The notes below the pieces were generated by a model, which had not been told where the DNA came from, made no database searches, and saw only the letters and a program-made list of their open reading frames with translations. From an uncultured Eubacteriales bacterium (GTDB taxonomy: Bacteria; Bacillota; Clostridia; Christensenellales; Aristaeellaceae), in NCBI GenBank assembly GCA_902790175.1, contig CADAQZ010000005.1:122173-186172 (forward strand): a stretch of 64,000 nt of DNA, written 5' to 3'. The translations under genes were made by a program, and so were the position numbers. Positions 5,905 through 63,799 of the stretch are shown piece by piece. Numbering within the stretch: position 1 is the stretch's first letter; each line of letters begins with the position of its first letter.

Positions 5905-6012
5905 CAGAGAGTTTAGAGTTCAGAGTTTAGAGTTTAGCGAATAGCCAGCACACTCTTATCTCCACTCTTCACTCTTCACTCTTCACTCTTCACTCTCCAC
6001 TCTCAACTCTCA
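5905..6012. repeat. Heptamer repeat block with opposed purine and pyrimidine arms
   Basis: The 136-bp gap holds a purine-rich arm of AGAGTTTAGAGTTCAGAG type at about 5909-5938, then a pyrimidine-rich arm of repeated CACTCTT units at about 5950-6010. The two arms could pair imperfectly as a hairpin. The TGA stop of the upstream epimerase/ATP-grasp gene (6010-6012) lies in the first bases of the repeat. The same unit recurs in other gaps of this window. Confidence 0.8.
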
Positions 6013-8085
6013 TCGTTTCCTCTTCTCCATCTCCGCCTTGCGCTTCCGGAAGCCTTGTATCGTGTACGTGAACCAGGGCCAGGGGTCGCGGGGGTTGAAG
6101 ATCTGGTCGGTGGTGCGGCGGAAGTCGAACCAGCCGGGCTTCGTGTTGAAGCGGTTGGGCGACTGCAAGAACCAGAGCAGGTCCGTATGCATGTAGCGCA
6201 GGCGGACGCCCTCGCGGTAGTCGTCGTAGGCGGTCACGGGCTGGCCCGTGCCCAGCTCCACCACCTGCCGCGCGAAATCCACGCCCGCGGCGAAGCACAC
6301 CTTCACGCTGGCGGTGATGCGCGGGTTGATCTCCATCACGCGGCAGACGCCGTCGCGCGGGTCCTCGATCAGGTCCACGTCGCCATAGCCGCGCCAGCCG
6401 ATGCTCTGAAGCAATCTGATCGAGTCTGCGGCGATGTCGGGCCGCTTCACGCTGGTCGAGCAGCAGGTGCTGCCGCCGTCCACCGGATACCAGCGCGTCT
6501 TGTCGAACACGCACGCGCTCTTCGGCTGGCCGTCGGCGTCCAAAAACACCTCGCACTTGTACTGCGTGCCCGTCTGGGGAACGTAGTCCTGCACCACCAT
6601 CGGGCCAAAGCGCGCCACGGCGCCGTCAAACACCGCGCGCAGCTGCGCCTCGTCGCGGATCACGTGAAAGCCGATGGAGCCGTAGCCCACGCGGGGCTTG
6701 ATGATGAACGGGAACGGCATGCCCGCGGCGAGGATGTCGTCGGCGCAGGTCATGTCGTAGAGCGTGTGCGGGCAGGGCACGCCCGCCGCGTCGCAGGCGC
6801 GCATCGTCTCCTGCTTGTCCGCGGCGCGCCTGAACACCTCCGGCTCGTTCACCGCCGGATACGCCAGCGCGCGCACCTCGTCGATGTGGTCCGAAAGCAG
6901 CGTAGCGGAGAAGTCCGTCATCGGGATCACCACATCGTAGTGGCCCTCCCGGAGCACGTCCATCAGCGCCGCGAACGAGGCGTCCGCGTTCTCGCGGTCC
7001 CAGAAGCGGATCAGCTTCACGTCCGGGTACTTCGAGGCGTAGCCCACGTCCAGCTTGCTGGCGTTATAGGTGGTCAGGTGGCAGCCCAGCGCCTTCAGCG
7101 CAGGCATCAGCGCCATGTTCTGCCGCGCGAAGCCCTCCAGCAACAGCACCCGCACGCCGCGCAGGTCCGCGGGGTCCGGAACGAACGGCTCGCCCCCGCC
7201 GCCTTCGAAGAAGCGCGCCGCCGCGCCGCCCTCAAAGCGATAGGGATTGAGGATCTTGTTCACGTTCAGCCGAAGCCCCGGCGGGCAGAGCTTGGAAAAC
7301 GCCAGCGCGCACTTCCCCATCCAGCGGGGCACATGCAGCGCGATCTTCGCCCGTCCCCAGCGCTTCTCGTCCTTCACCATGCGGCGGGAGTTGAACGGCC
7401 TATCGTCCGTGAAGTTCACGACGCCCCGCGGCGTATTCTCCCGGCCCGCCCACTCGCAGAGGATCGCCTCCACGCGCTCGATGTTCAAAAAGGCGTAGTC
7501 GATGCCCTTCCCCACCACGAAGGCGACCTTCGGGTACTTGAGGTAGTAGCGCTTTCGGATGTCGTGCTGGTCCTCGTCGGTGTAGACCGGCGCGAAGCGC
7601 GCGATGAAGTACGGCGTCTCACCCATCAGCGCTGCGAGCCGACGCTCGGCCTCGCGCTTCGAGCGCGCGTAGCCGCCCACGGGCGCGGGCCGCGTCGCCT
7701 CGGTGATCGGACCGTCCGGGATGCCGTACACGTCCACGGTGCTGGCGAAGAACACGGGGATGCCGCGCTTCGCCGCGCCCTCGAACACGTGCTGGCTCGC
7801 CAGCACATTCAGCATGAAGTAGCGGTTCCAGCTCAGGTCCGCCTCGCCGGTCACGTGCGCCAGCGCGGCCAGGTGGATCACCCGGTCCGCCGGATGCGCG
7901 TCGAACAGCGCCTCGACGGCGATGGGATCGGTCAGGTCGCACGTCGCGTGGGTGTAGTTCGGGTGCGCGAACGCCGCCTTAGCGACGTCCACGCCGATCA
8001 CCCTGTGCCCGCACTCGCACAGCGCCAGCGCCGCGCGGCGGCCCAGCATACCGGAAGCCCCGGTGAGCAGTATCGCGTGCGTCAC
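6010..8085 (-). CDS. NAD-dependent epimerase/dehydratase fused to an ATP-grasp ligase domain
   Basis: The first part (about residues 1-300) is an extended SDR of the nucleotide-sugar epimerase type: LLTGASGMLG binds NAD near the N-terminus, HLAAL and STVDVYG follow, and GYARSKREAE holds the Tyr-x3-Lys pair. The second part (about 315-650) is an ATP-grasp domain with a preATP-grasp fold start VRVLLLEGF, PFIIKPRVGYGS as the ATP-binding lysine strand, and VMEINPRITAS as the metal-binding end. At 691 aa it is about the sum of two ordinary proteins. Translation starts at GTG 8085, overlapping the deacetylase stop by four bases, so coupling is likely. ATP-grasp enzymes join a carboxylate to an amine or thiol, so an amide decoration on a sugar is an inference only. 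Confidence 0.85.
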   Translation of the reverse strand: MTHAILLTGASGMLGRRAALALCECGHRVIGVDVAKAAFAHPNYTHATCDLTDPIAVEALFDAHPADRVIHLAALAHVTGEADLSWNRYFMLNVLASQHVFEGAAKRGIPVFFASTVDVYGIPDGPITEATRPAPVGGYARSKREAERRLAALMGETPYFIARFAPVYTDEDQHDIRKRYYLKYPKVAFVVGKGIDYAFLNIERVEAILCEWAGRENTPRGVVNFTDDRPFNSRRMVKDEKRWGRAKIALHVPRWMGKCALAFSKLCPPGLRLNVNKILNPYRFEGGAAARFFEGGGGEPFVPDPADLRGVRVLLLEGFARQNMALMPALKALGCHLTTYNASKLDVGYASKYPDVKLIRFWDRENADASFAALMDVLREGHYDVVIPMTDFSATLLSDHIDEVRALAYPAVNEPEVFRRAADKQETMRACDAAGVPCPHTLYDMTCADDILAAGMPFPFIIKPRVGYGSIGFHVIRDEAQLRAVFDGAVARFGPMVVQDYVPQTGTQYKCEVFLDADGQPKSACVFDKTRWYPVDGGSTCCSTSVKRPDIAADSIRLLQSIGWRGYGDVDLIEDPRDGVCRVMEINPRITASVKVCFAAGVDFARQVVELGTGQPVTAYDDYREGVRLRYMHTDLLWFLQSPNRFNTKPGWFDFRRTTDQIFNPRDPWPWFTYTIQGFRKRKAEMEKRKR

Positions 8086-9668: not shown

Positions 9669-10649
9669 ATGAAACCGACGAATAAGCGCGTGCTCTGGGT
9701 GGAGCGCACGCAGGTGATCGGCATGCTGCTGGTGGTGCTGCACCACTGCGTGCCCCACGGCTACGACGGCCCCGGCTGGCTCTTGAACCTGCTGAACGGC
9801 ATACAGTACCCGGCACTGGTGTGCTTCTTCCTCGCCAGCGGCCTGTTCGCGCCGCGCTGGCGGCGGGACGGGTACGGCGCGTACATGAAAAAGCGTGCGC
9901 TGCGGCTGCTGACGCCCTGGCTGTGCGTGAACCTTCTGATGCTGGCCCCGCGCTACGTCGCGGCGCTGGCGATGGGCGTGAAGGCGAAGATCACGCCGCT
10001 GTGGCTGCTGATGTCGTTTCTCGACCCCCACGGCCAGGGCGTCACGCCCCACCTGTGGTTTTTGCCCGCGCTGATGCTGATGGCGGCGCTTGCGCCGCTG
10101 CTGGATCGCGCACTGCGGGCGAGAACGCCGCGCGCCATCACCCTCGCGGCGCTGCTGATCCTGTCGGCGCTGCCGGTGAAGCTGCCGACGCTTATGTGCC
10201 TGAACGAGCTCAGGCTGTACCTTGCCTGGTACGCGATCGGCTACGCGCTGTCCGTGACCCGGGGCGACGCGCCGCCGCTGCGCGGCGCGGCGGGACTGGC
10301 GGCAGGGCTGGCGGGGCTGATCGCCTTCGCGCTGACGCTGGTCTTCCCCGGCCTGACGATGGCGACGTTTATGCAGATGCTGGGCGCGGCGGCGCTGCTG
10401 GCCTGCGCGGGCCGCTGCGAACGCGACGACGCGCTCACCGCGTTCTTCCGCGGCAAGACCTACTGCGTCTATATCCTCTCGATGTGCGCGCAGAACCTCA
10501 TCGAGGTGCTGGGCTACGCCGCGCGCTGGCCGTGGATCATAACGTCGCTTCTGATGCTGGCCGCCGGTCTGGCCGTGCCGCTGCTGGTATGCGCGTGGCA
10601 CGAAAAAAGGCCGCTGCCCCGGTGGCTGCGGCTGGTGGTGGGATTATAA
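9669..10649 (+). CDS. Acyltransferase 3 family membrane protein
   Basis: This is a multi-pass membrane acyltransferase of the OafA/Acyl_transf_3 family, which moves acyl groups onto extracytoplasmic sugars or peptidoglycan. The catalytic-type histidine region is MLLVVLHHCVPHG at residues 17-29, and the later FFLASGLFAPRW and RALRLLTPWL segments match the family. About nine or ten hydrophobic helices span the 326 residues. It is transcribed away from the polysaccharide operon, and a role in O-acylating that polymer is plausible but inferred. GGAG sits at 9658-9661 before the ATG. The gene ends directly at a palindromic repeat. Confidence 0.85.
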   Translation: MKPTNKRVLWVERTQVIGMLLVVLHHCVPHGYDGPGWLLNLLNGIQYPALVCFFLASGLFAPRWRRDGYGAYMKKRALRLLTPWLCVNLLMLAPRYVAALAMGVKAKITPLWLLMSFLDPHGQGVTPHLWFLPALMLMAALAPLLDRALRARTPRAITLAALLILSALPVKLPTLMCLNELRLYLAWYAIGYALSVTRGDAPPLRGAAGLAAGLAGLIAFALTLVFPGLTMATFMQMLGAAALLACAGRCERDDALTAFFRGKTYCVYILSMCAQNLIEVLGYAARWPWIITSLLMLAAGLAVPLLVCAWHEKRPLPRWLRLVVGL

Positions 10650-10809
10650 AAGATCCTTCGACTTCGCCTTGCTCTGCAAGGCTTCGCTCAGGATGACAAC
10701 GGACGATGATCTGTCATCCAAAGCGAAGCCTTGGCAGGATGACAACAGACAATCACCTGTCATCCTGAGCGGAGCCCCGCGCGCGGGGCGCAGTCGAAGG
10801 ATCTTTATA
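10650..10809. repeat. Palindromic repeat element (GATCCTTCG...CTCAGGATGAC family), compound copy
   Basis: The whole gap between two converging genes is filled by this element. It opens with AAAGATCCTTCG and closes with CGAAGGATCTTT, with internal copies of CAGGATGACAAC and TGTCATCCTGAGCGGAG in both orientations. It can fold as a long hairpin and could act as a two-way terminator. Related copies lie at 17733-17989, 33121-33201 and 63601-63676. Confidence 0.85.
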
Positions 10810-16122: not shown

Positions 16123-17043
16123 ATGTTCATCGCCGACGCCCACTGCGACACGCTCTACGCCATCGCCATCGAGGGCACCAAGCCCGCGGACTGCGTGGTC
16201 ACGCCCGCGCGTCTTAAGCAGGGCGGCGTGGGGCTTCAGACCTACGCGCTGTTCTGCGGCAAGCACGGTCCCGCCCCCGCCGGCCATCCCCGCGCCGACG
16301 CCCTGGCCATGCTGAAGGCCGTGGAGCAGGCCGGCGTGCCGATCTTGACCGGCGACCTGCCCGACGCCCCGCCGGAAGTGCCCACGGGCGTCTTCTCCTG
16401 CGAGGGCGGCGAGATGTTCGAGGGGTCGCTCGCGCGGCTGGAGGAGTTCCAGCAGCGCCTGCGCCTCAGGATGATCGCGCTGACCTGGAACTTTGAAAAC
16501 GAGATCGGCCACCCCGCGGCCGAGGGCCCCGACGGCGGCCTGAAGCCTTTTGGGTTCGAGCTGCTCAGGGCCATGGACCGCGAGGGCATACTGCCGGACG
16601 TGTCCCACCTGAACGAGGCGGGCTTCTGGGACGTTTGCGAGCGCGCGGCGCTGCCGCCGATCGCCAGCCACTCCGACTGCCGCTGGCTTTGCGACGTACC
16701 CCGCAACCTGAGGAAAGAGCAGGTGCGCGCCATCGTGGAGCGCGGCGGCTTCATCGGCGTGAACTTCTACAGCGACTTCCTGCGCGAGGACGCGCACGCC
16801 ACGCTGGACGACGTCGTGCGCCACGTGGACGCGCTGATGGAGATGGGCGCGGAGAAGGTCGTGGGCTTCGGCTCGGACTTCGACGGCATCGAGCACTGGC
16901 CGGAGGGCCTCGCCCACCCCGGCGAGTTCCCCAACGCGCTGGACGCGCTGCGCCGCCGCGGCTACAGTGAGGACACGCTGCGGGACCTCGCCGGGCTCAA
17001 CCTGTGGCGCGTGCTCAAGCGGGCGGAGGCCGCGCGGGGATGA
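16123..17043 (+). CDS. Membrane dipeptidase family (peptidase M19)
   Basis: M19 enzymes are zinc-dependent dipeptidases with a TIM-barrel fold. The metal ligands are seen as DAHCDTL at residues 5-11, the bridging glutamate in SCEGGEM, the histidines in DVSHLN and ASHSD, and the late aspartate in GFGSDFDGIE. The length of 306 aa is normal for the short bacterial form, and no signal peptide is present, so a cytoplasmic site is likely. The stop TGA overlaps the ATG of the next gene (ATGA, 17040-17043), so translation is coupled to the GTPase. Confidence 0.92.
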   Translation: MFIADAHCDTLYAIAIEGTKPADCVVTPARLKQGGVGLQTYALFCGKHGPAPAGHPRADALAMLKAVEQAGVPILTGDLPDAPPEVPTGVFSCEGGEMFEGSLARLEEFQQRLRLRMIALTWNFENEIGHPAAEGPDGGLKPFGFELLRAMDREGILPDVSHLNEAGFWDVCERAALPPIASHSDCRWLCDVPRNLRKEQVRAIVERGGFIGVNFYSDFLREDAHATLDDVVRHVDALMEMGAEKVVGFGSDFDGIEHWPEGLAHPGEFPNALDALRRRGYSEDTLRDLAGLNLWRVLKRAEAARG

Positions 17044-19223
17044 ACCGCGTCGTCGGCATACTCGCCCACGTGGACGCGGGCAAGACCACGCTCTCCGAGC
17101 ATCTGCTCTGCCACGCCGGCGTGCTGCGCGCGGCGGGACGCGTGGATCACGGGGACACGCTGCTGGACGCGCATCCGCTGGAGAGGCGGCGCGGCATCAC
17201 CATCTTCTCCGACCAGGCGGTGTTCGAGCGCGGCGGCACGCGCTTCTTCTGGGTGGACACCCCCGGCCACGCGGACTTTTCCGCCGAGATGGAGCGCGCG
17301 CTGTCGATCCTCGACATGGCCGTGCTGGTCGTCAACGGCGCGGAGGGCATCCAGAGCCACACGGAAACGCTCTGGGGGCTGCTGGAAGCCTACAACGTGC
17401 CCACGCTGCTGTTCATCAACAAGACCGACCGGCCCGCCTGCGACGCGGACGCGGTGCTCGCGCAGCTGAAAAAGCGGCTGAGCGCGGACGTCGTCGACGC
17501 GGCGGGCTGGGATGGCGGCGAATTGCCCGCGGGATTGATCGAGGCCGCCTGCGAGCGCGACGAGGCGCTGCTGGAGCGCTTCATCGCCGGGGAGTACGAC
17601 CGCGGGGCGTGGCTGGACGCGCTGCGCGCGCAGGTGAAAGGTCGCGCGCTGTTCCCCGTATGGCGCGGCTCGGCGCTCAACGATGTCGGCGTGGCCGCGC
17701 TGCTGGACGCGCTGGCGGCGCTGGCGGGAGGAGAAAGATCCTTCGCTTCGCTCAGGATGACAACAGATGCGGGCGCCAATTATGGCGTCCCTACGGGCGA
17801 CGTCGCTTCGCTCAGGATGACACAGGATGCGGACGCCAATTATGGCGTCCCTACGGGCGACGTCGCTTCGTTCGGGATGACACCCGATGCGGCATCCTGT
17901 CATTCTGAGCGGAGCGTCGCCGCAGGCGGCGCGCAGTCGAAGAATCTTTCCCCCGCGAACGCCACCTATGGCGTCCCTACAGGCGCTGACGCCCCCTTCT
18001 CCGCCCTCGTCTACAAGGTCCGCCGCGACGCGCAGGGCAACCGCCTTTGCTTCTTCAAGGTGCTCTCCGGCGGCGTGGCCGCGCGGGAAGCCGTCGCCGT
18101 GCCCGGCGGCAGCGCCAAGCTGAACGAGCTGCGGCTGTACAGCGGCGCGAAGTTCACGCCCTTGCCGCGCGCCGAGGCGGGCATGCTCTGCGCCGCCGCG
18201 GGCCTTTCCGGCGTCCGCCCCGGGGACTACATCGGCGCGGACGCCGGAAGGCGCAACGCATTCCACACCGAGCCGATGATGACCGCCAGCGTGCTGTGCG
18301 ACGCGCCCGCGAACCGCGTGTTGGAGGCGCTCCGGCAGCTGGAGGACGAGGACCCGTCGCTGGGCGTCGCCTACAACGAGGCCGCCGGGAGCGTCGAGCT
18401 GCGCGTGATGGGCGCGATCCAGCTGGAGGTGCTCCAGCAGCTGGCGCTGGACCGCTTCGACCTCGAAATCGAGTTCGGCCCGCTGCGCGTACTGTACATG
18501 GAGACCATCGCCGCGCCCGCCGTCGGCGTGGGGCACTACGAGCCGCTGCGCCACTACGCGGAGGTGCAGCTGCGGCTCGCGCCCGGCCCGCGGGGCAGCG
18601 GCGTGCGGTTTGAATCGCTGTGCCACGTGGACGAGCTGGCGCTGAACTGGCAGCGGCTGATCGAGACGCACGTGTTCGAGAAGGCCCACAAGGGCGTGCT
18701 CACCGGCGCGCCGCTGACGGACGTCGTCGTGCAGCTGCTGCACGGCCGCGCGCACCTGAAACACACCGAGGGCGGCGACTTTCGCCAGAGCACCTACCGC
18801 GCCATCCGCAACGCGCTGATGTACGCCGAAAGCGTGCTGCTGGAGCCGATTTGCCGCTTTTCGCTGCGCGCGCCGCAGGACAGCTACGGCAGGGTGATGG
18901 GCGATCTGACGCGGATGCACGCGCAGCTGGACCCGCCGCAGATGGAGGGCGACGCCTTCACGCTGACCGGCGAGGCCGCGTTCGCATCCTTCGCCGCCTA
19001 CAACGCCGACTTCCTCGCCGCCACCCGCGGCCGCGGCCTGCTCAGCTACCGGCTGGACCACTACGCGCCCTGCCGCGACGCCGAGGCCGTGATCGCCGCG
19101 GCGCACTACAACCCGCTGGCGGACGACACGCCAGACTCCGTGTTCTGCTCGCACGGCGCGGGCTACACCGTGCCCTGGGACGAGGTGAAGGCGCACGCGC
19201 ACTGCCCGGTCGAAACAGGCTAA
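17040..19223 (+). CDS. Tet(M)-like ribosomal-protection translation GTPase carrying a translated repeat insert
   Basis: The protein is an EF-G relative of the Tet(M)/Tet(W) kind. G motifs are clear: AHVDAGKTT at residues 8-16, RRRGITIFS in switch I, DTPGH, and NKTD for guanine. Domains II to V follow, ending in a Tet-like C-terminal region (SYGRVMGDL, FTLTGEAAF). Between the G domain and domain II, residues about 232-318 are read entirely from intergenic-type repeats (RSFASLRMT, NYGVPTGDVAS twice), yet the frame stays open. Whether it confers tetracycline resistance cannot be said; many Clostridia carry chromosomal members of uncertain function. ATG 17040 gives 727 aa, about 90 more than Tet(M), which matches the insert size. 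Confidence 0.87.
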   Translation: MNRVVGILAHVDAGKTTLSEHLLCHAGVLRAAGRVDHGDTLLDAHPLERRRGITIFSDQAVFERGGTRFFWVDTPGHADFSAEMERALSILDMAVLVVNGAEGIQSHTETLWGLLEAYNVPTLLFINKTDRPACDADAVLAQLKKRLSADVVDAAGWDGGELPAGLIEAACERDEALLERFIAGEYDRGAWLDALRAQVKGRALFPVWRGSALNDVGVAALLDALAALAGGERSFASLRMTTDAGANYGVPTGDVASLRMTQDADANYGVPTGDVASFGMTPDAASCHSERSVAAGGAQSKNLSPANATYGVPTGADAPFSALVYKVRRDAQGNRLCFFKVLSGGVAAREAVAVPGGSAKLNELRLYSGAKFTPLPRAEAGMLCAAAGLSGVRPGDYIGADAGRRNAFHTEPMMTASVLCDAPANRVLEALRQLEDEDPSLGVAYNEAAGSVELRVMGAIQLEVLQQLALDRFDLEIEFGPLRVLYMETIAAPAVGVGHYEPLRHYAEVQLRLAPGPRGSGVRFESLCHVDELALNWQRLIETHVFEKAHKGVLTGAPLTDVVVQLLHGRAHLKHTEGGDFRQSTYRAIRNALMYAESVLLEPICRFSLRAPQDSYGRVMGDLTRMHAQLDPPQMEGDAFTLTGEAAFASFAAYNADFLAATRGRGLLSYRLDHYAPCRDAEAVIAAAHYNPLADDTPDSVFCSHGAGYTVPWDEVKAHAHCPVETG
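17733..17989 (+). repeat. Repeat cluster inserted in the GTPase coding sequence
   Basis: About 257 bp made of AAAGATCCTTCGCTTCGC-type palindrome halves, a tandem unit of about 63 bp containing ATGGCGTCCCTACGGGCGA in two copies plus a third partial, and a closing TGTCATTCTGAGCGGAG...AGTCGAAGAATCTTT half. Its net length preserves the reading frame. The parts match elements elsewhere found between genes. Confidence 0.88.
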
Positions 19224-19231
19224 ACGAATAG

Positions 19232-19270
19232 ACGCGGCGGCGGCCGAATGGCCGCCGCCGCGTTTGTTTT
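19232..19270 (+). terminator. Strong intrinsic terminator of the dipeptidase/GTPase operon
   Basis: A perfect 14-bp GC stem (19232-19245 with 19250-19263) around the loop GAAT is followed by TTTGTTTT. It runs up to the stop of the converging MATE gene. Confidence 0.92.
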
Positions 19271-20621
19271 ACACCCCGTACTTCTTCTTTTTCACCCTGA
19301 AATAGCACACCATGTGCACGATGAACGTGATGGTCCAGGAGATCGGATAGGAGACGTACAGCATCGTCAGCGTGGGGTTCAGCGGGAAGATGCCGAGGAT
19401 CCAGATCACGCGCAGCACGCACACGCCCACGATGGACACCACCATCGGCATGACGGAGCTGCCCATGCCGCGCAGCAGGCCCACAGCCGTGTCCATCATG
19501 CCGCACATGAAGTAGGTCGGCGCGATGATGCCCGTGCGCATGCCCGCCGCGGCCACGACGGCGTCATCGTCGGTGTAGATGTGAAACAGCGTCCCCTTGA
19601 ACAGCATCAGCAGCCCGCCCATCACCGCGCCGATGGCGAACACCGCCATCAGCGAATCGCGCGCCACGCGGGCGATCCGCTCGTAGCGCCGCGCGCCCAC
19701 GTTCTGGCCGGTGAAGGTGATGGCGCCCTGGTAAATGCTGTTCATGGCCACGTAGATGTAGCCCTCCAGATTGCTGGCGGTGGTGTTGCCCGCCACGACG
19801 GTCTTGCCGAAGCTGTTGACGGTGGACTGGATCAGCACGTTGGAGATGGAGAACACGATGCCCTGCAGGCCCGCCGGCAGGCCGACCTTCGCGATCTGCC
19901 CCACCTTGGCCATGTCCAGCCGCAGCTTTCTAAGCTCCAGCTTGATGGCCCCGTCGCTGCGCATCAGGCACAGCAGCACCAGCACCGCCGAGATGATCTG
20001 CGAGATGATCGTGGCCAGCGCCACGCCGGACACGCCCATGCCGAACGCGATCACGAACAGCAGGTTCAAGAGCACGTTCGCCACGCCCGCGATGGTCAGG
20101 TAGGCCAGCGGGCGGCGCGTGTCGCCCACGGCGCGCAGGATCGCCGCGCCGAAGTTGTAGAGCATGTTCGCCGGCATGCCCAGGAAGTAGATGCGCATGT
20201 AGGCCGTCGCCAGGGGCAGCACCTCTCCGGGCGTGTTCATCAGGCCCAGGAACGTGCCCGCCAGGATAAAGCCCACGACGCCGACCAGCACGCCGCTGAT
20301 CAGGCTCATCGCCACCGACGTGTGCACCGCGTCGCGCGTCTGCTGGTAGTCCCCCGCGCCCCGGCACTGGGCCACCACCACGTTCGCGCCCACCGACAGC
20401 CCCAGAAACAGGTTCACCAGCAAATTGATCAGCGGCCCCGGCGCGCCCACCGCTGCCAGCGCGGCGTCGCCCTCGAAGCGCCCGACCACGATCACGTCCG
20501 CGGCGTTGAAGGTAAGCTGCAGCATGCTGGACAGCATCAGCGGCAGCGCAAAGCTGAGCAGCTTCGGCATCACCGGGCCGTTAAGCATGTCGATTTCATA
20601 GTGCTTGTTGCGAAGGCGCAT
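19269..20621 (-). CDS. MATE family efflux transporter
   Basis: This inner-membrane protein exports drugs or metabolites in exchange for sodium or protons. Twelve hydrophobic segments are arranged in two MatE halves; the N-terminal half holds LPLMLSSMLQLTFNAADVIV, with the family's conserved polar and acidic pattern, and LRAVGDTRRP and the LRGMGSS repeat the same feature in each half. ATG 20621 (450 aa) follows GGGGAG, while an in-frame TTG at 20642 does not. It stands alone with its own -10 element at 20684-20689. Substrate unknown. Confidence 0.92.
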   Translation of the reverse strand: MRLRNKHYEIDMLNGPVMPKLLSFALPLMLSSMLQLTFNAADVIVVGRFEGDAALAAVGAPGPLINLLVNLFLGLSVGANVVVAQCRGAGDYQQTRDAVHTSVAMSLISGVLVGVVGFILAGTFLGLMNTPGEVLPLATAYMRIYFLGMPANMLYNFGAAILRAVGDTRRPLAYLTIAGVANVLLNLLFVIAFGMGVSGVALATIISQIISAVLVLLCLMRSDGAIKLELRKLRLDMAKVGQIAKVGLPAGLQGIVFSISNVLIQSTVNSFGKTVVAGNTTASNLEGYIYVAMNSIYQGAITFTGQNVGARRYERIARVARDSLMAVFAIGAVMGGLLMLFKGTLFHIYTDDDAVVAAAGMRTGIIAPTYFMCGMMDTAVGLLRGMGSSVMPMVVSIVGVCVLRVIWILGIFPLNPTLTMLYVSYPISWTITFIVHMVCYFRVKKKKYGV

Positions 20622-33098: not shown

Positions 33099-33120
33099 TG
33101 CCCCGGGTTTGACCCTAAGA

Positions 33121-33203
33121 AAAGATCCTTCGCTTCGCTCAGGATGACACGATTGACGTCTGACACGTCGTTGTCATCCTGAGCGCAGCGAAGGATCTTT
33201 TTG
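33121..33203. repeat. Palindromic repeat element acting as the clpX terminator
   Basis: AAAGATCCTTCGCTTCGCTC (33121-) faces GAGCGCAGCGAAGGATCTTT (to 33200), with arms of about 29 bp and a T run at the end. Confidence 0.88.
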
Positions 33204-33204
33204 T

Positions 33205-33400
33205 ATGCACATGGGCGGGCGGTGGGACCGCGCCCCGCGGCGCAACGCCGTCCCTGCGGGAATGGTGAACGACCTCTCCCGCCTCACTTCGTTCGGCACC
33301 CTCCCCTAAAGGGGAAGGCTCTGGCGGGCGGCGCAACGCCGCCCCTACAACCCCTCCGGCCCTTCGGGCCACCTCCCCTTACACAGGGGAGGCAAGATGC
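33205..33400. repeat. GC-rich intergenic repeat cluster
   Basis: Contains GGCGCAACGCCGTCCCTGCG and GGCGGCGCAACGCCGCCCCT copies, then CTCCCCTAAAGGGGAAGG and CTCCCCTTACACAGGGGAGG hairpins. No coding signal is seen on either strand. Confidence 0.8.
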
Positions 33401-33411
33401 GGCAGCCGCCA

Positions 33412-33522
33412 TCAGCTCCTCACTCCTCACTCCTCACTCTTTCAACTCCACTCTCCACACTCCACACTCCACACTCAACTCTCAACTCTCCACTCTTCAC
33501 TCTTCACTCTTCACTCTCCCCC
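33412..33522. repeat. Heptamer repeat block overlapping a stop codon
   Basis: A run of CACTCCT, CACACTC and CACTCTT units. The last five or six codons of the next minus-strand gene (VKSEE and the stop at 33497) are read from this block. Confidence 0.85.
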
Positions 33523-34660
33523 GCAGCGCCGCGCCGAGCAGCGCAAGGATCACACCCCAGCGCAGGATGCCGCCCCAGAACTCCACCACGCGCAGCTCGC
33601 GGGTGCTCACGCGCACCAGCCGCGCCGCGTCGCCGGTCAGGCTCCAGAACACCTTGGTGATCGACGACCACGCCACGATGTTCTCCGGCACCCATTCCGT
33701 GAACACGTACAACGGCTGCGCCGAGAACAAGAGCAGCAGGTACGTCAGGCCGATCAGCACGCCGTAGCCCAGCAGGATCTGGAAGACAAGCCCGACGAGC
33801 CGCGGGATCAGCGCCTTGAAGTAGCTCTGGCGCAGCGCGCCGCGGAAGCGCTCGATCCACTTTGCCGCGATCGCGGTCATGCGCCTGAACAGGCCCACGA
33901 GCGCGTAGAGGCCCACCACGAGCAAGATCACCCGCGGCAATATCGTGCGCCGCATGGCCTCCTTTTTCAGATCGATCATCGTGCCGCCCGGCTGCCACTG
34001 GCCCGCCGCGTCCTCAAACAGCTGAGACGCGCCCCCGCCGTTCGAGTTCGGCACCGCCGACAGCGTCACGGCGTCCAGCTGGATCTCACAGGCCCCCGCC
34101 GCCAGCAGCGGCACGTAGATGTCGTACAATTCGCCGTCGCCCACGCCGCGCCCGCCCAGCAGGCTCCCGGCGTGGCGCACCGCGCCCACGACGCGAAATT
34201 CCGCATCGTTCAGCTTCACGGTCGCATCCGGCGGCAACTCCTCGCCGAACAGCTTGAAGGCCAGCTCCTCGTCCAGCATGGCCACCCGAGCGCCGTCCTG
34301 CAATTCGCTCTCGCCGATGCGCCGCCCCTGCGTGAGGAAGCGCGGGTAGACCTCCAGCCAGCCCTCGCTGATGGCCCAGAGCGCCGCGCTGGCGGAATGG
34401 TCCCCCGCCGACACGGCCGCGCTCTGTACCACGCCGCCCACGGCCGTCCAGGCCAGCGCGTCCTTCATGCCCTCGCCCAGCTTTTGGCCTTCCTTCGCCA
34501 GCTTGGCGTAGGCCTCGCCCTTCTCGCCGGGCGCGGGGGCGGCGGCGCAGTATTGCAGCGCGTTCGGGGTCTGAAGCAGCATCGCCAGCGCGCCGAGCGC
34601 CATCGCCACGCCCAGGAGCATCAGCACCCAGGGCAGCCTGCGCCTTCTTTCCTTCTTCAT
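33497..34660 (-). CDS. MacB-periplasmic-domain-like membrane protein
   Basis: A single N-terminal membrane helix (LPWVLMLLGVAMALGALAML) is followed by an extracytoplasmic region of about 200 residues (40-240) and three or four hydrophobic segments towards the C-terminus. The external part contains VAMLDEELAFKLFGEELPP and FRVVGAVRHAG, which resemble the MacB_PCD domain of FtsX-type ABC permeases, though no ATPase is encoded nearby. It is the last gene of the seven-gene operon and follows the second HlyD-like adaptor by 12 bp, so a role with that adaptor is inferred. Its C-terminal codons come from a heptamer repeat. Confidence 0.65.
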   Translation of the reverse strand: MKKERRRRLPWVLMLLGVAMALGALAMLLQTPNALQYCAAAPAPGEKGEAYAKLAKEGQKLGEGMKDALAWTAVGGVVQSAAVSAGDHSASAALWAISEGWLEVYPRFLTQGRRIGESELQDGARVAMLDEELAFKLFGEELPPDATVKLNDAEFRVVGAVRHAGSLLGGRGVGDGELYDIYVPLLAAGACEIQLDAVTLSAVPNSNGGGASQLFEDAAGQWQPGGTMIDLKKEAMRRTILPRVILLVVGLYALVGLFRRMTAIAAKWIERFRGALRQSYFKALIPRLVGLVFQILLGYGVLIGLTYLLLLFSAQPLYVFTEWVPENIVAWSSITKVFWSLTGDAARLVRVSTRELRVVEFWGGILRWGVILALLGAALRGRVKSEE

Positions 34661-41292: not shown

Positions 41293-43584
41293 TCAAGCTG
41301 TATACGTCCCGAACGGCACGTTCAGCATGTCCTCCGGGCCGAGGTATACATTGTAGAAGTACATCACGCTGTTGGTGGAGCTGGACAGCTCGTAGGCCAT
41401 GTTCTCCACCACCGCGCGGATGGACAGGTCGCAGTCGCGGGAGAAGTCGCTGTCGCTCATCGCCGACACGAAGCCGGGATCGCGGTTCACCCGCATTGTC
41501 AGCGTGTAGTCAAACTTGCGCGTGGAGACGCCCAGCATCTTCAGCTCCGTGTACTTGGTGCCGCCGGTGAAGCCCTCCGTCGGGAAGGCGGCGACGTCGT
41601 CGCCCACCTTCAGCGCCACGTAGCGGATGCCGCTGTTGGCCAGCAGCCGGTACACCTCGCCGTTGAAGCGCCAGGCGTAGGTGAATTCGTCGCCCAGCGA
41701 AGGATCGAGCTCGGCCTCCAGCACCAGCGTGTCCTGCGCGGGCCGGTTCGTGTCCGCCAGCACGTTCTCGTGCGCGTCCGCGTCCGACGGCGCGGGGGCC
41801 CAGCTGCGCAGATGCGCCGTGAAGGGCTGCGCCTGGCCCACGGGAGCCTCCGCCTCGGGGGCGGAATCCAGCACCAGCTCGAGCGGCATCTCCTCGCCGC
41901 CCACGGTCAGCTGGGTCATCGGCTCCGCGGGGAGCTCCAGCTCCAGGCTCTCGTAGTCGGCGCGCTCCTCGCCGTCGCCGCTGGCGTGGGACGGGGCGGG
42001 CTTCTTCTCGCCTCCGCCGCCGCCACCGCCGCCGCCGCCACCGCCGCCGCCCGGCTTGGGCTCGACGCTGACGGTCTCGATGACGGATTGCGAGCGCCAG
42101 ACGTTCCCCGCCGCGTCCCTCACCTGGATCGCGCCCGGGGAGAAGCTCTCAGCCGCCGCCCCCGCATAGGTAAACACTTCGTCGTTTGCAAGGTCGGCCC
42201 AGTTCGCGCCGCCGTCCATCGAAACGCCCGCGACGCCGCTGAGGGCGTCGGAGGCCTGGATGTGCAGCGCGAAGCTCACGGCCTCGTCCTGCCAGACGCG
42301 CACGCCCTCCGGCGCGGTGCAGTCGTACCAGATCTGGTAGCTGTCGGACAGGCTGACGATATCGCCGATGCCGTCCACCATCGCGAAACGCACGTTGTAC
42401 TGGCCCTCCGCGTCCGGCGAGAACGCGTTGCCGGAGAGGGGCGCGATGCGCTCGTCGTAGATGATGGCGGCGTAGCTGTACTTCGCGCCTTCGGGAATGC
42501 CCGAGAGCGTGAAGGCGGGGACCTCGTTGCTCCAGGCGGCGGGCGTGTAGCGCTCCGCGGCCACGGCCAGCACCGGCGCGGGGGCCTCGGAGGGCTCCGG
42601 CTGGGGCTCGGGCTCGGGCTCCGGCTGGTCGTACTTGCCCTTCCGGTCTACCCAGAAGTACAGCGCGGCCACTTCCTCCGGGGCCGCCTCGGCGTACTGC
42701 GCCGGGTCAATCAGCGCGGGCGCGGCGTTGCCCCTGGGGTCGTCGGAGGCGATGTAGACGACGTTCTCGCCGTCCGGGAAGACCTCCTTGTCCGGCTCGA
42801 GCGTCAGCTGCGACAGTTTCTTCAGCGGCGCCCTCTCGAGGAACACGCGATGGTCGAGATCGACCCGCAGGTAGACCGTGCCGGAGCCCTCGACCTGCGT
42901 GAGCAGGTCCTCCAGCGTGCCGGAAGCGGACTCGAAGCGCGCCTCCGCGGGCGTCTCCTCCGCGGGCTGATCCCCGGCGGGCTGCTCCTCGGCAGGCTGT
43001 TCCTCGCCGGGCTGCTCCTCGCCGGGCTGCTCCCCGGCGGGCGCGTCTTCAGCGGACGCTGCCGCGGCGTTCTCGCCGTCGATCTGCTCGCCGGATTGCT
43101 CGCCGGATTGTTCGCCGGACTGTTCGCCGGATTGATCCGCCGCCTGTTCAACAGTTTGATCAGCGGTCTGTTCAGCGCCCTGCTCGACCGTCTGATCTGC
43201 GGGTTGCTCGACCTTCTGCTCGGCAGCTTGTTCACCGGTCTGTTCCGTGCCCTGCTCGGCGCTCTGCTCGACGGTCTGTTCCGTGCCCTGTTCGGCGCTC
43301 TGCTCGACGGTCTGTTCCGCGCCCTGTTCGACCGTCTGCTCACCGGTCTGTTCGACCGTCTGCTCGACCGTCTGCTCGGCGCTCTGCTCCGCGGGCTGTT
43401 CGGCGACCTGCTCCTGCGCGGGCTCGGCCTGCGTCTCGGGCTCACCTTCTCCCGCGGGCTCCGCCTGTTCCACGCCCTCGACCTGGTCGACGGGCGCGTC
43501 CGGGGGCGCGGCCTCCCCTTCCGCCATGGCGGCCATACCGTTCAGGCACAGGCAGAGCGCCAGGAAATATATCAGTTTCTTCAT
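41293..43584 (-). CDS. Large secreted protein with four-residue EQ repeats and Ig-like region
   Basis: A signal peptide (LIYFLALCLCLNGMAAMA) is followed by about 150 residues of a Glu/Gln-rich tract with a period of four (TVEQ, SAEQ, GTEQ, TGEQ and related), then a Pro/Glu/Gly-rich stretch. Later a region with YTPAAWSNEVPAFTLSG and GVSMDGGANWADL looks like an Ig-like or FlgD-like domain, followed by an uninterrupted run of 14 glycines near residue 525. The C-terminal 200 residues are beta-rich with no clear family. No LPXTG motif or membrane anchor is visible. It is the first gene of the operon and faces the sigma factor gene. Function unknown; a cell-surface stalk is an inference. Confidence 0.7.
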   Translation of the reverse strand: MKKLIYFLALCLCLNGMAAMAEGEAAPPDAPVDQVEGVEQAEPAGEGEPETQAEPAQEQVAEQPAEQSAEQTVEQTVEQTGEQTVEQGAEQTVEQSAEQGTEQTVEQSAEQGTEQTGEQAAEQKVEQPADQTVEQGAEQTADQTVEQAADQSGEQSGEQSGEQSGEQIDGENAAAASAEDAPAGEQPGEEQPGEEQPAEEQPAGDQPAEETPAEARFESASGTLEDLLTQVEGSGTVYLRVDLDHRVFLERAPLKKLSQLTLEPDKEVFPDGENVVYIASDDPRGNAAPALIDPAQYAEAAPEEVAALYFWVDRKGKYDQPEPEPEPQPEPSEAPAPVLAVAAERYTPAAWSNEVPAFTLSGIPEGAKYSYAAIIYDERIAPLSGNAFSPDAEGQYNVRFAMVDGIGDIVSLSDSYQIWYDCTAPEGVRVWQDEAVSFALHIQASDALSGVAGVSMDGGANWADLANDEVFTYAGAAAESFSPGAIQVRDAAGNVWRSQSVIETVSVEPKPGGGGGGGGGGGGGGEKKPAPSHASGDGEERADYESLELELPAEPMTQLTVGGEEMPLELVLDSAPEAEAPVGQAQPFTAHLRSWAPAPSDADAHENVLADTNRPAQDTLVLEAELDPSLGDEFTYAWRFNGEVYRLLANSGIRYVALKVGDDVAAFPTEGFTGGTKYTELKMLGVSTRKFDYTLTMRVNRDPGFVSAMSDSDFSRDCDLSIRAVVENMAYELSSSTNSVMYFYNVYLGPEDMLNVPFGTYTA

Positions 43585-45886: not shown

Positions 45887-46099
45887 ACACAGTGTAGGGG
45901 CGCCGTTTCGGCGCCCGCCCCAGTCCAATCGTTGTACCTGGCGGGCGGCGCAACGCCGCCCCTACAACTCCTCACTCCTCACTCCTAACTCCTAACTTTT
46001 CACAAAGGCGGGCGGCGCAACGCCGCCCCTACGATTTCCGCGCGGCAGCGGCCGTCCATTCCTCATTCTCCACTCTCCACTTTTAACTCTCCACTCTCC
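45885..46099. repeat. Mixed repeat cluster
   Basis: Holds a GTAGGGGCGCCGTTTCGGCG hairpin, two copies of GGCGGGCGGCGCAACGCCGC (about 45940 and 46010) each followed by CCCTAC, and CACTCCT and CACTCTC heptamers that touch the YitT stop codon at 46100. No gene is evident. Confidence 0.82.
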
Positions 46100-46942
46100 T
46101 CACATCCTCTTGAACCCTTCGCCGAGGACCTCCTTGGCCTTGTTGGCGATCACGAAGGCCTTGGGGTCGATCTCGAACACGATGCGGCGAAGGCGGATGG
46201 TCTCGAAGCGGTTGACGACGCACAGCAGCACGCGCTTTTTCGTGTGGCTGTACATGCCCACGGCCTCCAGCGCGGTGACGCCGCGGTCCATGTCCCGGAG
46301 CACGCGCTCGGCAATCTCGTCGCTCTTGTCGGAGATGATGAAGTAGGAGTGGGCGGAGTCCGGGCCCTCCAGCACCAGGTCGATCAGCACGTTGCAGATG
46401 AAGGTGCTGATCAGGCCGTACATGGCGGCCTGCGGCTCGAAGGCGAATGCGCTGGCGATGATCACCAGGCCGTCGAAGAAGAAGATGCAGTAGCTGACCT
46501 TCAGCACCGACACCAGCCGGTGCAGAAGCGCCGCCAGCATGTCGGTGCCGCCGGTGGTGGCGCTGCCGCGCAGCACCAGGCCGAAGCCGATGCCGCTGAT
46601 CGCGCCGCCATAGACCGCGGCCAGCAGCATGTCGTCTGTGGCGGCGGGCAGGGGCAGGTGGTCGATCAGCAGCGACAATAGCACCATCGCCACCAGCGAG
46701 CGCACGCCGAAGCGAAAGCCCATCGACTTCATCGAGATCAGAAACAGCGGCACGTTCAGCAGAATGTTCACCGTGCCCACGCCGATGCCCGTCAGGTGGT
46801 TCAGCAGCTGGCCCACGCCCGTGAAACCCCCGCACACCACCTGGTTGGGGATCAGGTACATCCGGTAGGCCGCGGCCCCCGCCAGCAGCCCGACGACGAC
46901 CAGCAGGTCGTTTTTCAGTTCCGTGCGCAGTGCGTTTTTCAT
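46100..46942 (-). CDS. YitT family membrane protein (DUF161/DUF2179)
   Basis: The N-terminal half contains five or six membrane helices with the family motif PNQVVCGGFTGVGQLLNHLTG, and GLVLRGSATTGGTDMLAAL repeats the pattern. The C-terminal 90 residues form the soluble DUF2179 domain (SYFIISDKSDEIAERVL, FEIDPKAFVIANKAKEVLG). ATG 46942 (280 aa) follows GGGAGG. The family's molecular role is not known. Its promoter lies at 46969-46997. Confidence 0.92.
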   Translation of the reverse strand: MKNALRTELKNDLLVVVGLLAGAAAYRMYLIPNQVVCGGFTGVGQLLNHLTGIGVGTVNILLNVPLFLISMKSMGFRFGVRSLVAMVLLSLLIDHLPLPAATDDMLLAAVYGGAISGIGFGLVLRGSATTGGTDMLAALLHRLVSVLKVSYCIFFFDGLVIIASAFAFEPQAAMYGLISTFICNVLIDLVLEGPDSAHSYFIISDKSDEIAERVLRDMDRGVTALEAVGMYSHTKKRVLLCVVNRFETIRLRRIVFEIDPKAFVIANKAKEVLGEGFKRM

Positions 46943-48385: not shown

Positions 48386-48405
48386 AGCGCCGGTGGTCGA
48401 TGCTT

Positions 48406-48439
48406 CGCGGGAGCGTTTGCTCCCGCGCCTTGCTTTTTT
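48406..48439 (+). terminator. Terminator after spo0A
   Basis: CGCGGGAGC (48406-48414) pairs with GCTCCCGCG (48419-48427), followed by CCTTGCTTTTTT. Confidence 0.75.
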
Positions 48440-48458
48440 GGGGCTCATCGCGTATAAT
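48430..48458 (+). promoter_or_regulatory. Promoter of the teichoic-acid-like gene group
   Basis: TTGCTT (48430-48435), 17 bp, TATAAT (48453-48458). Its -35 overlaps the tail of the spo0A terminator. Confidence 0.75.
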
Positions 48459-48495
48459 GATATTTATAGAAGTATGCTATTTGGAGAAAGATGCC

Positions 48496-49689
48496 ATGTC
48501 GACGCTGCGGACGATCAAGGTTGCCCTTCGCAAGAACCAGAAGCTGTTTGAACTGCTGCACCCGTTTCACAAGGCGTGGCGCACGGCGCTGATGCGCTGG
48601 GCCCAGGCCCATTACGGCATCAACCCCAAAAAGGTGATCTTCTCCAGCTTCGAGGGCCGCAGCTACAACGACAACCCGCGCTACATCTCCGAGCGCCTGC
48701 ACGCGCTGTGCCCCGAGGCCGAGATCGTGTGGCTGTTCCAGACGAAAACGATCGACCGGGTGCAGGTGCCGCCCTACGTGAAAAAGCAGTACCGCATCAC
48801 CCGCGCGGGGCTGATCGAACAGGCCACCGCCCGCTTCTGGGTGGACAACTTCCGCCACACCGAATCGCTCTACCTCGCCCCCGGCAAGCAGTTCTACATC
48901 CAGACCTGGCACGGCGACCGCGGCTTCAAGCGCGTGGGCGACGACAACGAAAAGCTGGACCACAAGGTGCTGCGCATGGAAAACCAGTGCGCGATGATGA
49001 TCGCGGGCTCCGAGTTCGGCAAGGGCACCTATCGCACGGCCTTCCACTTCGAGGGCGAGGTGCTGATGGACGGCTGCCCGCGCAACGACATCCTCCTGCG
49101 CAACGACCCGGACGAGGCTGCGGCCATCCGCCGGAAATTGGGTATCCCGGTGGGCGTGAAGCTGCTCATGTACGCGCCGACCTACCGCGACACGCTGGAG
49201 AGGTGCGCGCAGGACGCCGTATTGGACATCTCCGCCACGCTCGACCATCTGGAGAAGACCACGGGCGAGACCTGGCGCTGCCTCTACCGCGCGCACTACC
49301 TGAACACGGCGCTGAACGTGAAGGCGGACGAAAGGCTGATCGACGCCGGAAGCTACCCGGAGATGGCGGAGCTGTTGCTGGTGACGGACATGCTGATCAC
49401 TGACTACTCCTCCTGCGGCGGGGACTTCGCGCTGCTGCGCCGCCCGCTGTTCCTCTACCACGCGGACGCGGAGGAATACCTGCGCGAGAGCCGCAGCTTC
49501 TACTTTGACATCGAAAAATCCCCGTTCCTGGTGGCGCACGACCAGGCGGAGCTGGAGAAGCTGATCGACGAGACGGACGCCGAAAAGGCCCGCGAGAACT
49601 GCGAGGCGCTGGACGCCTTCTTCGGCACCACCGAGACCGGCCACGCCGCCGATGCGGTGTGCAAATACATCATGGACAGAATGAACTGA
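48496..49689 (+). CDS. TagF-like CDP-glycerol glycerophosphotransferase (first copy)
   Basis: The family links glycerol- or ribitol-phosphate units from CDP donors into a lipid-linked polymer at the inner face of the membrane. The catalytic C-terminal domain pattern is complete: WVDNFRHTE, FYIQTWHGDRGFKRVG, APTYRDTL, RCLYRAHYLNT and LLVTDMLITDYSSCGGDFALL, with the HG and DYSS motifs. ATG 48496 follows GGAGAAAG and gives 397 aa, about half the size of full TagF, lacking its N-terminal domain. The second copy starts 17 bp after its stop. Confidence 0.93.
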   Translation: MSTLRTIKVALRKNQKLFELLHPFHKAWRTALMRWAQAHYGINPKKVIFSSFEGRSYNDNPRYISERLHALCPEAEIVWLFQTKTIDRVQVPPYVKKQYRITRAGLIEQATARFWVDNFRHTESLYLAPGKQFYIQTWHGDRGFKRVGDDNEKLDHKVLRMENQCAMMIAGSEFGKGTYRTAFHFEGEVLMDGCPRNDILLRNDPDEAAAIRRKLGIPVGVKLLMYAPTYRDTLERCAQDAVLDISATLDHLEKTTGETWRCLYRAHYLNTALNVKADERLIDAGSYPEMAELLLVTDMLITDYSSCGGDFALLRRPLFLYHADAEEYLRESRSFYFDIEKSPFLVAHDQAELEKLIDETDAEKARENCEALDAFFGTTETGHAADAVCKYIMDRMN

Positions 49690-49705
49690 CACACGGAGGA
49701 TAGAT

Positions 49706-50878
49706 ATGGGCATCGACCGCTACACCCACCTGGCCAGCGCCTACCGCTATTTGCTGGTGCGCGCGGGCAGGCTCCTCAAGGGCATCGACCCGGACAAGGT
49801 CGTTTTCTGCTGCTTCCAGGGGCGCTCCTACGGCGACAACCCGCGGGTGATCTCCGAGCGGCTGCACGAATTGCGGCCCGAGGCGAAGATCGTCTGGCTG
49901 TTCACGCGCGACGCCGCCAGGCGCCTGAAGGGCGCGCTGCCGGACTACGTCCGGCCTGTGTTCTACAAGACCAAGGAGGCCTTTCTGGAGCAGGCCACGG
50001 CGCGCGTGTGGGTGGACAACTTCACCAAGCAGCGCTATCTGACGCTGGCGAAAGGCCGCCAGTTTTACGTGCAGACCTGGCACGGAGACCGCGCCATCAA
50101 GAAGATCTGCTACGATTTGAACCTGCCCGGCGACGGCCGCCGCGTCGAGGAGGACTGCGCGCGGGTGCTGACGGCCTCGACGTTCGGCGAGAAGATGTAC
50201 CGCACGGCGTTTCACTACAAGGGCGAGTACATCAAGGCCGGTTCCCCGCGCAACGACATCCTCGTGAAAAACGACCCGGACGAGATCCGCCGCGTGCGCG
50301 AAAAGCTGGGCGTGCCCCAGGGCGTGAAGCTGCTTCTGTACGCGCCGACCTACCGCGACAAGGGCGAGATCATCCCCCGGGACAAGCAGATGGACCTGGA
50401 GCGCACGCTGCGCCGCCTGGAGGAGAGGACCGGCGCAACCTGGCGCTGCCTGTACCGCACGCACTACCTGACGGGCGGCATCGACCTTCAGGCGCAGAAG
50501 GACCGCATCGTGGATGTGACGCAGTACGAGGACATGGCCGAGCTCTTGCTGGCGGCGGACATGGTGCTGACGGACTACTCGTCCTGCGCGCTGGACTTCA
50601 TCGTGCGCGACCTGCCCGCGCTGTTCTACATCCCCGACTGGGAGGACTACAAGGCTTCGCGCGGCGTCTACTTCGACATGCACGACGCGCCCTTTATGCT
50701 GGCGAAGAACCAGGATGAGCTGGAGGCGCTGATCGACGTCCTGACGCCGGAAAAGGCCGCGGCGAACTGCGCCGCCATCCGGGAGTACTTCGGCTACTAC
50801 GAGACGGGCCGCGCCACCGACGCCGCCTGCGAATACATCATCGGCAAGCTGGGAACCAAGGGTAAACAAAAGGATTAG
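49706..50878 (+). CDS. TagF-like CDP-glycerol glycerophosphotransferase (second copy)
   Basis: A paralogue of the preceding gene, sharing WVDNF, YVQTWHGDRAIKKI, SPRNDILVKNDPDE, APTYRDKGE, RCLYRTHYL and MVLTDYSSCALDF. It has 390 aa. The two copies differ enough that an old duplication is likely and they may perform primer and polymer steps respectively, which I infer from teichoic-acid systems rather than see. It is followed after 11 bp by the cytidylyltransferase gene, so all three form one operon. Confidence 0.93.
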   Translation: MGIDRYTHLASAYRYLLVRAGRLLKGIDPDKVVFCCFQGRSYGDNPRVISERLHELRPEAKIVWLFTRDAARRLKGALPDYVRPVFYKTKEAFLEQATARVWVDNFTKQRYLTLAKGRQFYVQTWHGDRAIKKICYDLNLPGDGRRVEEDCARVLTASTFGEKMYRTAFHYKGEYIKAGSPRNDILVKNDPDEIRRVREKLGVPQGVKLLLYAPTYRDKGEIIPRDKQMDLERTLRRLEERTGATWRCLYRTHYLTGGIDLQAQKDRIVDVTQYEDMAELLLAADMVLTDYSSCALDFIVRDLPALFYIPDWEDYKASRGVYFDMHDAPFMLAKNQDELEALIDVLTPEKAAANCAAIREYFGYYETGRATDAACEYIIGKLGTKGKQKD

Positions 50879-63517: not shown

Positions 63518-63778
63518 AGAGAGTGAGGAGTGAGGAGTTGAAAAGCGGCTGGCGCCATATTATAACTATTACTCCACTCGAAGCGTAACTCTCATACAAT
63601 CGTACAGATCCTTCGCTTCGCTCAGGATGACAACGACGCGAGTCTGTCATCCTGAGCGAAGCGAAGGATCTGTACGTTGCGAATAGTTAAGTTATCGGGC
63701 CAGAAGTCAAGCGAATCGAATCTGTCACTATTAACTCCATACTCCACTCTCCACACTCCACACTTTTTCTCACTCTCA
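63518..63778. repeat. Composite repeat region: heptamers flanking the palindromic element
   Basis: AGAGTGAGGAGTGAGGAG starts right after the stop, and CTCCACTCTCCACACTCC lies before the U32 gene. Between them is the 32-bp palindrome listed separately. No gene is evident. Confidence 0.85.
63601..63676. repeat. Palindromic repeat, best-preserved copy
   Basis: Two 32-bp arms (63601-63632 and 63645-63676) pair without mismatch around a 12-base loop. The core reads AGATCCTTCGCTTCGCTCAG. Confidence 0.92.
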
Positions 63779-63799
63779 TTCCCCATCAGGAGGTCATCC

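Follow-up and report, generated by a model that had tools for sequence, protein, structure and literature searches.

Palindromic repeats of the repetitive extragenic palindromic (REP) and miniature inverted-repeat transposable element (MITE) types have very probably inserted in a GTPase gene of an uncultured Eubacteriales bacterium, where they would be translated as a flexible spacer between two domains and tolerated by the protein. The gene, of the EF-G/Tet(M) superfamily, lies on the forward strand at 17040..19223 of a 64,000-nt stretch of contig CADAQZ010000005.1, and this whole stretch is referred to as the window. The insert occupies 17733..17989 on the same strand, at about residues 232-316 of the protein, in the linker between the G domain and domain II. 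It is made of repeats and its frame is open; the same joint has changed repeatedly within the genus, and linker and flanks differ in their pattern of selection.

An in-frame repeat insert in a GTPase gene

The GTPase has 727 amino acids (aa), and its frame is open throughout with no internal stop. By Pfam, residues 3-227 are GTP_EFTU and residues 319-396 EF-G domain II, after which come domains III, IV and V. GTP_EFTU and domains III, IV and V all score above their Pfam cut-offs and domain II scores below (20.3 vs 27 bits), which is the composition of an EF-G-like translational GTPase. GTPase motif residues are invariant or nearly so among 42 aligned homologues. About 90 residues separate the G domain from domain II, and most of them are encoded by the 257-bp insert.

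The original prediction called this protein Tet(M)-like. The term is apt at the superfamily level, as the EF-G-like domain plan and the GTPase motifs are common to this protein and the Tet(M)/Tet(O) ribosomal protection proteins, but it does not extend to membership in the resistance family, for which the tet_protect model of NCBIfam gives 396.2 bits against a curated cut-off of 775. With a score so far under the cut-off, the protein is best placed, on sequence grounds, in the EF-G/Tet(M) superfamily only. A further difference from Tet(M)/Tet(O) is that 27 of the 28 genomes in the genus set have it, a distribution more suggestive of a core gene than of acquired resistance. Incidentally, in three homologues outside the genus (L064, L072 and L084), the open frames extend some 200 residues further at the C terminus.

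The insert contains two families of repeat, denoted A and B, all on the forward strand. Family A contributes a left arm (AGATCCTTCG...CTCAGGATGACA) at 17734..17762 with the sequence AAAGATCCTTCGCTTCGCTCAGGATGACA, encoding RSFASLRMT, and an inverted right arm (TGTCATTCTGAGCG...CGAAGAATCTTT) at 17898..17949, encoding CHSERSVAAGGAQSKNL. These arms, the right one ending with CGAAGAATCTTT at 17949, flank a 60-bp (20-codon) in-frame tandem repeat at 17743..17862, of which the second copy is 93% identical and a third, degenerate copy 65% identical. Family B contributes three GGCGTCCCTAC hairpins that end with CTAC (GTAG on the other strand). One at 17769..17795 encodes ANYGVPT, and more copies lie at 17829-17855 and 17955-17981; the hairpins within the tandem repeat have the form GCGGACGCCAATTATGGCGTCCCTACGG, and the third such hairpin comes after the right arm. 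Palindromic and tandem repeats are therefore found in frame between the G domain and domain II, where they had been predicted.

The insert had also been said to share its families with the repeats that fill gaps between genes, and this is borne out: the 29-bp left arm is identical to an intergenic copy at 33121-33149, and the repeats are multi-copy in the window's genome (G000, 87.8% complete). In the DNA searches of this and other inserts, no more than 40 candidates were scored in any one genome, and the insert or linker itself was counted among the matches. With the 257-bp insert as query, at least 56 matches were found in its own genome (40 of 166 candidates scored), while a control 257-bp coding stretch of the same gene gave at least 2 (40 of 182 candidates scored). 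The family A core 17-mer CTTCGCTCAGGATGACA, with up to two mismatches, occurs at 236 sites in the genome (117 + 119), and its reversed control at none (0 + 0). Family A has the inverted terminal arms and the many copies of a MITE, as there are 53 distinct two-armed units besides the 236 core sites. Family B matches the description of a GTAG-tagged REP, a GTAG-ended hairpin that is interspersed, as 401,613 bases, overlaps included, contain four exact GGCGTCCCTAC sites besides those in the gene.

As to its size, the protein was proposed to exceed Tet(M) by just the 257 bp of the insert. The difference is indeed similar (727 vs 639 aa, chain 3j9y_w), although other differences may contribute to it. 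Compared with the nearest insert-free homologues over the same segment (117 vs 38 aa), the extra linker is real, but the gain is about 79 aa, slightly below 257 bp.

Repeated change of the linker within the genus

Linker length was compared over the segment from residue 214 to 330 in a genus set of 28 genomes, 27 of which have the GTPase gene. A short linker of 36-39 aa is found in 17 of the 27 orthologues, and a long one of 49-117 aa in the other 10: 117 aa in G000, 110 in G021, 84 in G025, 77 in each of G008 and G017, 67 in G010, 63 in G002, 52 in G026, 50 in G016 and 49 in G023. The alignment suggested with the prediction thus gives an uninterrupted short linker in most same-genus homologues. 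The contrary outcome, an unrelated sequence of the same length in all homologues, was not seen, as the 10 long linkers share no such sequence. All 10 run in one open frame without stops. Only in G011, an 86%-complete genome, was no GTPase match found at E 1e-60. The first-look candidate count of G011 was about equal to that of the window's genome.

For relatives, the best 80 of 152 were taken. Rows L036-L038, L050, L051 and L053-L118 were counted as outside the genus, L050 (72% identity) possibly being a close relative, and the 12 loci that match same-genus rows (L039-L049 and L052) were left out of the linker counts. The segment measures 35-43 aa in 68 of the 71 outside rows; the exceptions are L063 (55 aa), L068 (51 aa) and L098 (55 aa, with the segment apparently misaligned). 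With G018 as the reference, insertions longer than 13 aa are confined to the linker. Elsewhere, length steps are 7 aa at one place (two rows), at most 5 aa at another (two rows) and 1-2 aa otherwise, besides two 13-aa insertions in the single row L032.

The long linkers were then searched as DNA in their own genomes, a test that needed inserts of at least 60 bases, so that G016 and G023, which are shorter, fall outside it. Of the 10 long linkers, seven clearly occur in multiple copies in the genome that carries them, and that of G008 weakly so. Besides the insert in the window, at least 36 matches were found with the G021 linker, at least 15 with that of G002 and at least 7 with the 75-bp insert of G026. 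The G025 query gave at least 46 matches in G025 and at least 75 in G010, and the G008 query at least 26 in G017.

At least three kinds of repeat occur in these linkers. The family A palindrome is found in G000 and G002, GTAG-tagged hairpin pairs in G010 and G025, and a CTCCCTC/GAGGGAG hairpin in G021, G008, G017 and G026, while G000 additionally has the family B hairpins. The G010/G025 repeats (GTAGCGGCGACTATCAGTCGCC and GTAGCGGCGGCAATCTGCCGCC) are GTAG-ended hairpins with many interspersed copies, as expected of GTAG-tagged REPs. In-frame tandem growth is seen with a unit of 60 bp in the G000 insert and about 39 bp in that of G021.

Insertion history and selection

A tree was built from the C-terminal part only, with 29 rows including two outside the genus. 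In this tree, long G002 is sister to short G018 (support 100/99), and long G026 to short G014 (100/98). By the approximately unbiased (AU) test, a single clade of all 10 long rows is rejected (p 3.8e-66), and so are a clade of G000 and G002 (p 8.5e-8) and one of the four CTCCCTC rows (p 2.4e-50). The minimum number of changes on the tree is 7 between long and short, and 8 when repeat kinds are considered, and each of these changes may be a gain or a loss. The inserts of G008/G017 and of G010/G025 are homologous and have diverged at both synonymous and non-synonymous sites.

The ratio of non-synonymous to synonymous substitution rates (dN/dS) was measured separately for linkers and flanks. In pairs with both linkers long, the linker ratio is 0.79 for G008/G017 (49 codons), 0.97 for G010/G025 (39 codons) and 0.94 for G023/G016 (21 codons). 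The flanks, that is, the N and C parts, give 0.07-0.43 over the eight pairs examined, and 0.07-0.37 in the six pairs where one or both species have a long linker. GC content at third codon positions is 0.57-0.71 in eight long linkers vs 0.81-0.96 in their own flanks. Together, these values point to both neighbouring domains being preserved while the insert drifts almost neutrally. The short linker of G004/G003 gives 0.39 (8 codons) and the alignable linker of G000/G018 gives 0.37 (10 codons), both too few to weigh.

How often would an unselected insertion be harmless to the frame? Of the 53 two-armed family A units, 17 are a multiple of 3 in length, and open frames make up 99 of 318 readings; hence, roughly 1 in 10 insertions would be in phase and open, a rough estimate from family A alone.

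Repeats inside other proteins

The linker of a U32 peptidase shows a similar pattern. It is long (52-108 aa vs 43-44 aa) in 11 of 25 same-genus rows, where 25 of the 28 genomes were counted and G003, G011 and G024, which have fragments only, were left out. Repeat content was checked in two of the 11 long U32 linkers, those of G010 and G000. The G010 insert is a REP. The G000 linker, 70 aa long (L290, G000:C14), contains an in-frame repeat of the CTTCCCC...GGGGAAGG hairpin kind, making this the second such protein in the window's genome; three other loci contain four matches to the stretch, 20-48 nt long.

The G010 and G021 loci surveyed for in-gene copies had been picked because they contain matches. 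In G010, 3 of 36 merged sites (34 loci) passed as coding in frame on both sides, namely in the GTPase, the U32 peptidase and a sensor histidine kinase. The kinase gene (L275 1904-1994) has two in-frame GTAG REPs upstream of HisKA that encode TRSGGNLPPQ twice, in the same frame as in the GTPase linker. The peptide VAADCRRY of the G010 U32 protein resembles VATDSRRY of the G025 GTPase linker. In G021, 2 of 11 sites (10 loci) passed, one being in the GTPase; at L280 925-946, a 22-nt match in a 152-aa frame was discounted.

Family A was surveyed likewise in the window's genome over 91 sources, with up to three mismatches and a heuristic based on GC by codon position. The survey covers this one family, missed the U32 insert of G000, and yielded 41 site/frame rows with a spanning open frame. 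Three look-alikes (L179, L158 and L164) were judged from their flanking frames to lie between different genes, and were rejected.

A transposase gene between repeat arrays

Y1_Tnp genes are present in 16 of the 28 genomes. In G010 (L233 1180-2420, G010:C53), a gene for a transposase of the REP-associated type has on each side an array of GTAG hairpins in alternating, inverted orientation, and these hairpins are of the kind that fills the GTPase linkers of G010 and G025. Its product matches the NCBIfam model REP_Tyr_transpos with E 2.1e-20 (73.1 bits). The G010/G025 linker repeats therefore have the adjacency to a REP-associated tyrosine transposase (RAYT) gene that is expected of a REP system. 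In G000, the sole Y1_Tnp gene found (L232 1100-1990, G000:C44) has the GGGACGGTTCTCTTTTCAC repeat on both sides and not the families of the insert, and its product scores 63.7 of 80 bits against REP_Tyr_transpos. Family B is accordingly found without RAYT adjacency in this 87.8%-complete genome, its only Y1_Tnp match adjoining another repeat.

Proposed course of events and its alternatives

We propose that family A is a MITE-like unit with inverted arms and family B a set of small GTAG-ended hairpins, and that both entered the GTPase gene. Such repeats would insert widely, and those copies that come to lie in phase and free of stops at an interdomain linker would leave both adjoining domains working, for which reason they would be kept. 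Retained copies would then drift almost neutrally and grow by in-frame tandem duplication. The same GTPase linker has very probably taken repeats several times within the genus, from different families, and repeats have entered the U32 peptidase linker too. The insert peptide is presumably made, and the linker is likely exposed, judging from the domain boundaries and the near-neutral drift. As for how the copies were placed, we infer transposition rather than recombination, by a REP-associated transposase in the case of the GTAG repeats.

Several points weigh against this proposal. In-gene copies of family A are rare in the window's genome: among its 182 distinct family A sites, only the four in this gene are coding in frame on both sides, and for this family the broader idea that repeats invade all genes of the genome was rejected. 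Among the matches listed, the G008 linker has one besides itself in its own genome. G000 and G002, which carry the same kind of unit, may represent one older insertion followed by losses. The G010 transposase is barely above the Pfam cut-off for Y1_Tnp (24.6 vs 23) and below that of NCBIfam (73.1 vs 80), and a search limited to PF01797 found no mobilising enzyme for family A in G000. The linker dN/dS values are based on few codons, and short linkers evolve fast as well, with 1.17 for G022/G027 (10 codons, too few to weigh), so that weak constraint is a property of the linker site and not of the inserts alone. Finally, the genomes are drafts of 50-470 contigs, several matching records being labelled metagenome-assembled, and a single insert could be mis-assembled.

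The strongest alternative is that the inserts are selected, a longer or more flexible linker between the G domain and domain II altering how the GTPase works, with repeats as the raw material. This idea would fit both the recurrent alteration of a single site within the genus and the in-frame tandem growth. However, the short linker persists in 17 of 27 relatives, the three linker dN/dS values of 0.79-0.97 indicate neither clear constraint nor an excess of change, and the same pattern is found in the unrelated U32 peptidase. We regard selection for the inserts as unlikely.

Repeats are a classic hazard of assembly, and in draft genomes an assembler could have joined them into the gene. Against this, the long linkers of ten genomes coincide in position, differ in content and are in frame, and the homologous inserts shared by G008/G017 and by G010/G025 have diverged at synonymous and non-synonymous sites alike. 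An artefact is thus very improbable.

Slightly less probable still is that the insert exists in DNA only and, in the manner of a mini-intron or a translational bypass, is cut out of the mRNA or passed over by the ribosome. Its palindromes might let it fold, and palindromes within genes are unusual. On the other hand, all 10 long linkers are in phase and stop-free, which a skipped segment would not need to be. When 16900-19400 was scanned with Rfam under an E-value threshold, the sole hits were two at chance level (E 0.27 and 0.28), neither of which lies in the insert or reaches its gathering score, and both the skipped-segment and the RNA-element readings were dropped.

That the gene is a decaying pseudogene with a recent insert, as the lack of a G011 match might hint, is hardly credible with 727 codons open, motif residues retained and purifying selection on both flanks in pairs with insert-bearing species. 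Insertion of mobile palindromic repeats that are translated and tolerated thus remains the preferred explanation.

Other repeats in the window

The other repeat clusters of the window (10647-10806, 33117-33519, 45893-46098 and 63601-63761) were set against the open reading frame list rather than a gene-by-gene annotation, and by this list they fall outside the main reading frames. They include family A copies at 10647..10806, 33117..33204 and 63601..63678, the last with 32-nt perfect inverted arms, and CTAC/GTAG-ended hairpins of the GGCGGGCGGCGCAACGCCGCCCCTAC type at 45893..46034, a form related to family B.

Runs of a 7-bp unit (CACTCTT/CACTCTC), common to other contigs, occur at 5949-6018, 33407-33532, 46043-46119 and 63724-63779. 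At 43053-43461, about 22 overlapping copies of a repeat with a 12-bp period lie apparently within a coding region. Diverged repeats at 1168-bp spacing in adjoining open reading frames at 48400-50878 are probably a tandem pair of paralogous genes.

Meaning and comparison with known systems

In the literature, six exact family A DNA and peptide strings had no match, and the titles and abstract starts retrieved on Rickettsia palindromic elements, Wolbachia repeats, RAYT/REP in Clostridia and Faecalibacterium intergenic repeats contained no such description. Relative to the literature searched, what would be new is the host group, the genus-wide recurrence by unrelated repeat families at one joint and the measured drift, and also, in one genome, a tie between linker repeats and a transposase gene of the REP-associated type with the same repeats on either side.

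More tentatively, mobile intergenic repeats may be a standing supply of linkers in this genus. Unrelated REP/MITE families would recolonise the interdomain joints of several conserved proteins, so that linkers of related species range from about 36 to more than 100 residues; this would be a general route by which proteins change. We consider this broader idea plausible without favouring it; the literature searched does not describe such a route for this bacterial group.

The GTPase linker offers a natural experiment: related species carry different repeat peptides at the same protein joint, both neighbours of which remain under selection, so that linker tolerance is measurable. It extends in-gene palindromes to Clostridia-type gut genomes. 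It is also a warning against dismissing a repeat peptide like HSERSVAAGGAQSKN as spurious whenever a predicted protein contains one.

Among known systems, the REP-RAYT systems are resembled by the G010 gene, which matches REP_Tyr_transpos with 73.1 of 80 bits and lies between two inverted GTAG hairpin arrays. The differences are that in G010 the same kind of repeat stands in open frame within three proteins, and that family A is without a tie to such a transposase gene.

The Rickettsia palindromic elements, to which the insert was originally likened, are outlined in the review PMC10969869 as palindromic repeats of about 150 bp that have entered various unrelated genes without breaking the frame and are translated as a fusion. 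Likened by description only, the analogy holds in the sense of working alike, as palindromic repeats are in frame inside unrelated genes here too, namely those for the GTPase, the U32 peptidase and the sensor kinase. As far as that account goes, the present case differs in that the host lineage is Clostridia-type, one site has received repeats of several unrelated families, and few copies of family A lie within genes.

Also close are the intragenic GTAG/CGTC REPs, which PMC3733652 describes as GTAG-ended hairpins, single or grouped, inside open reading frames, with clusters that encode 43-82 aa; it ties GTAG repeats to RAYT genes and suggests that intragenic REPs occupy flexible linkers or loops. 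"Clostridi-" and "Firmicutes" are absent from its main text. GTAG-ended hairpins inside reading frames are common to that report and ours; the difference is that one linker is altered here repeatedly across a genus, and partly by repeats without the GTAG tag. The report includes recB of X. campestris and X. oryzae, which have different REPs at about the same site, and with this Xanthomonas precedent, as it is given there, the phenomenon described here is a variant of a kind already known.
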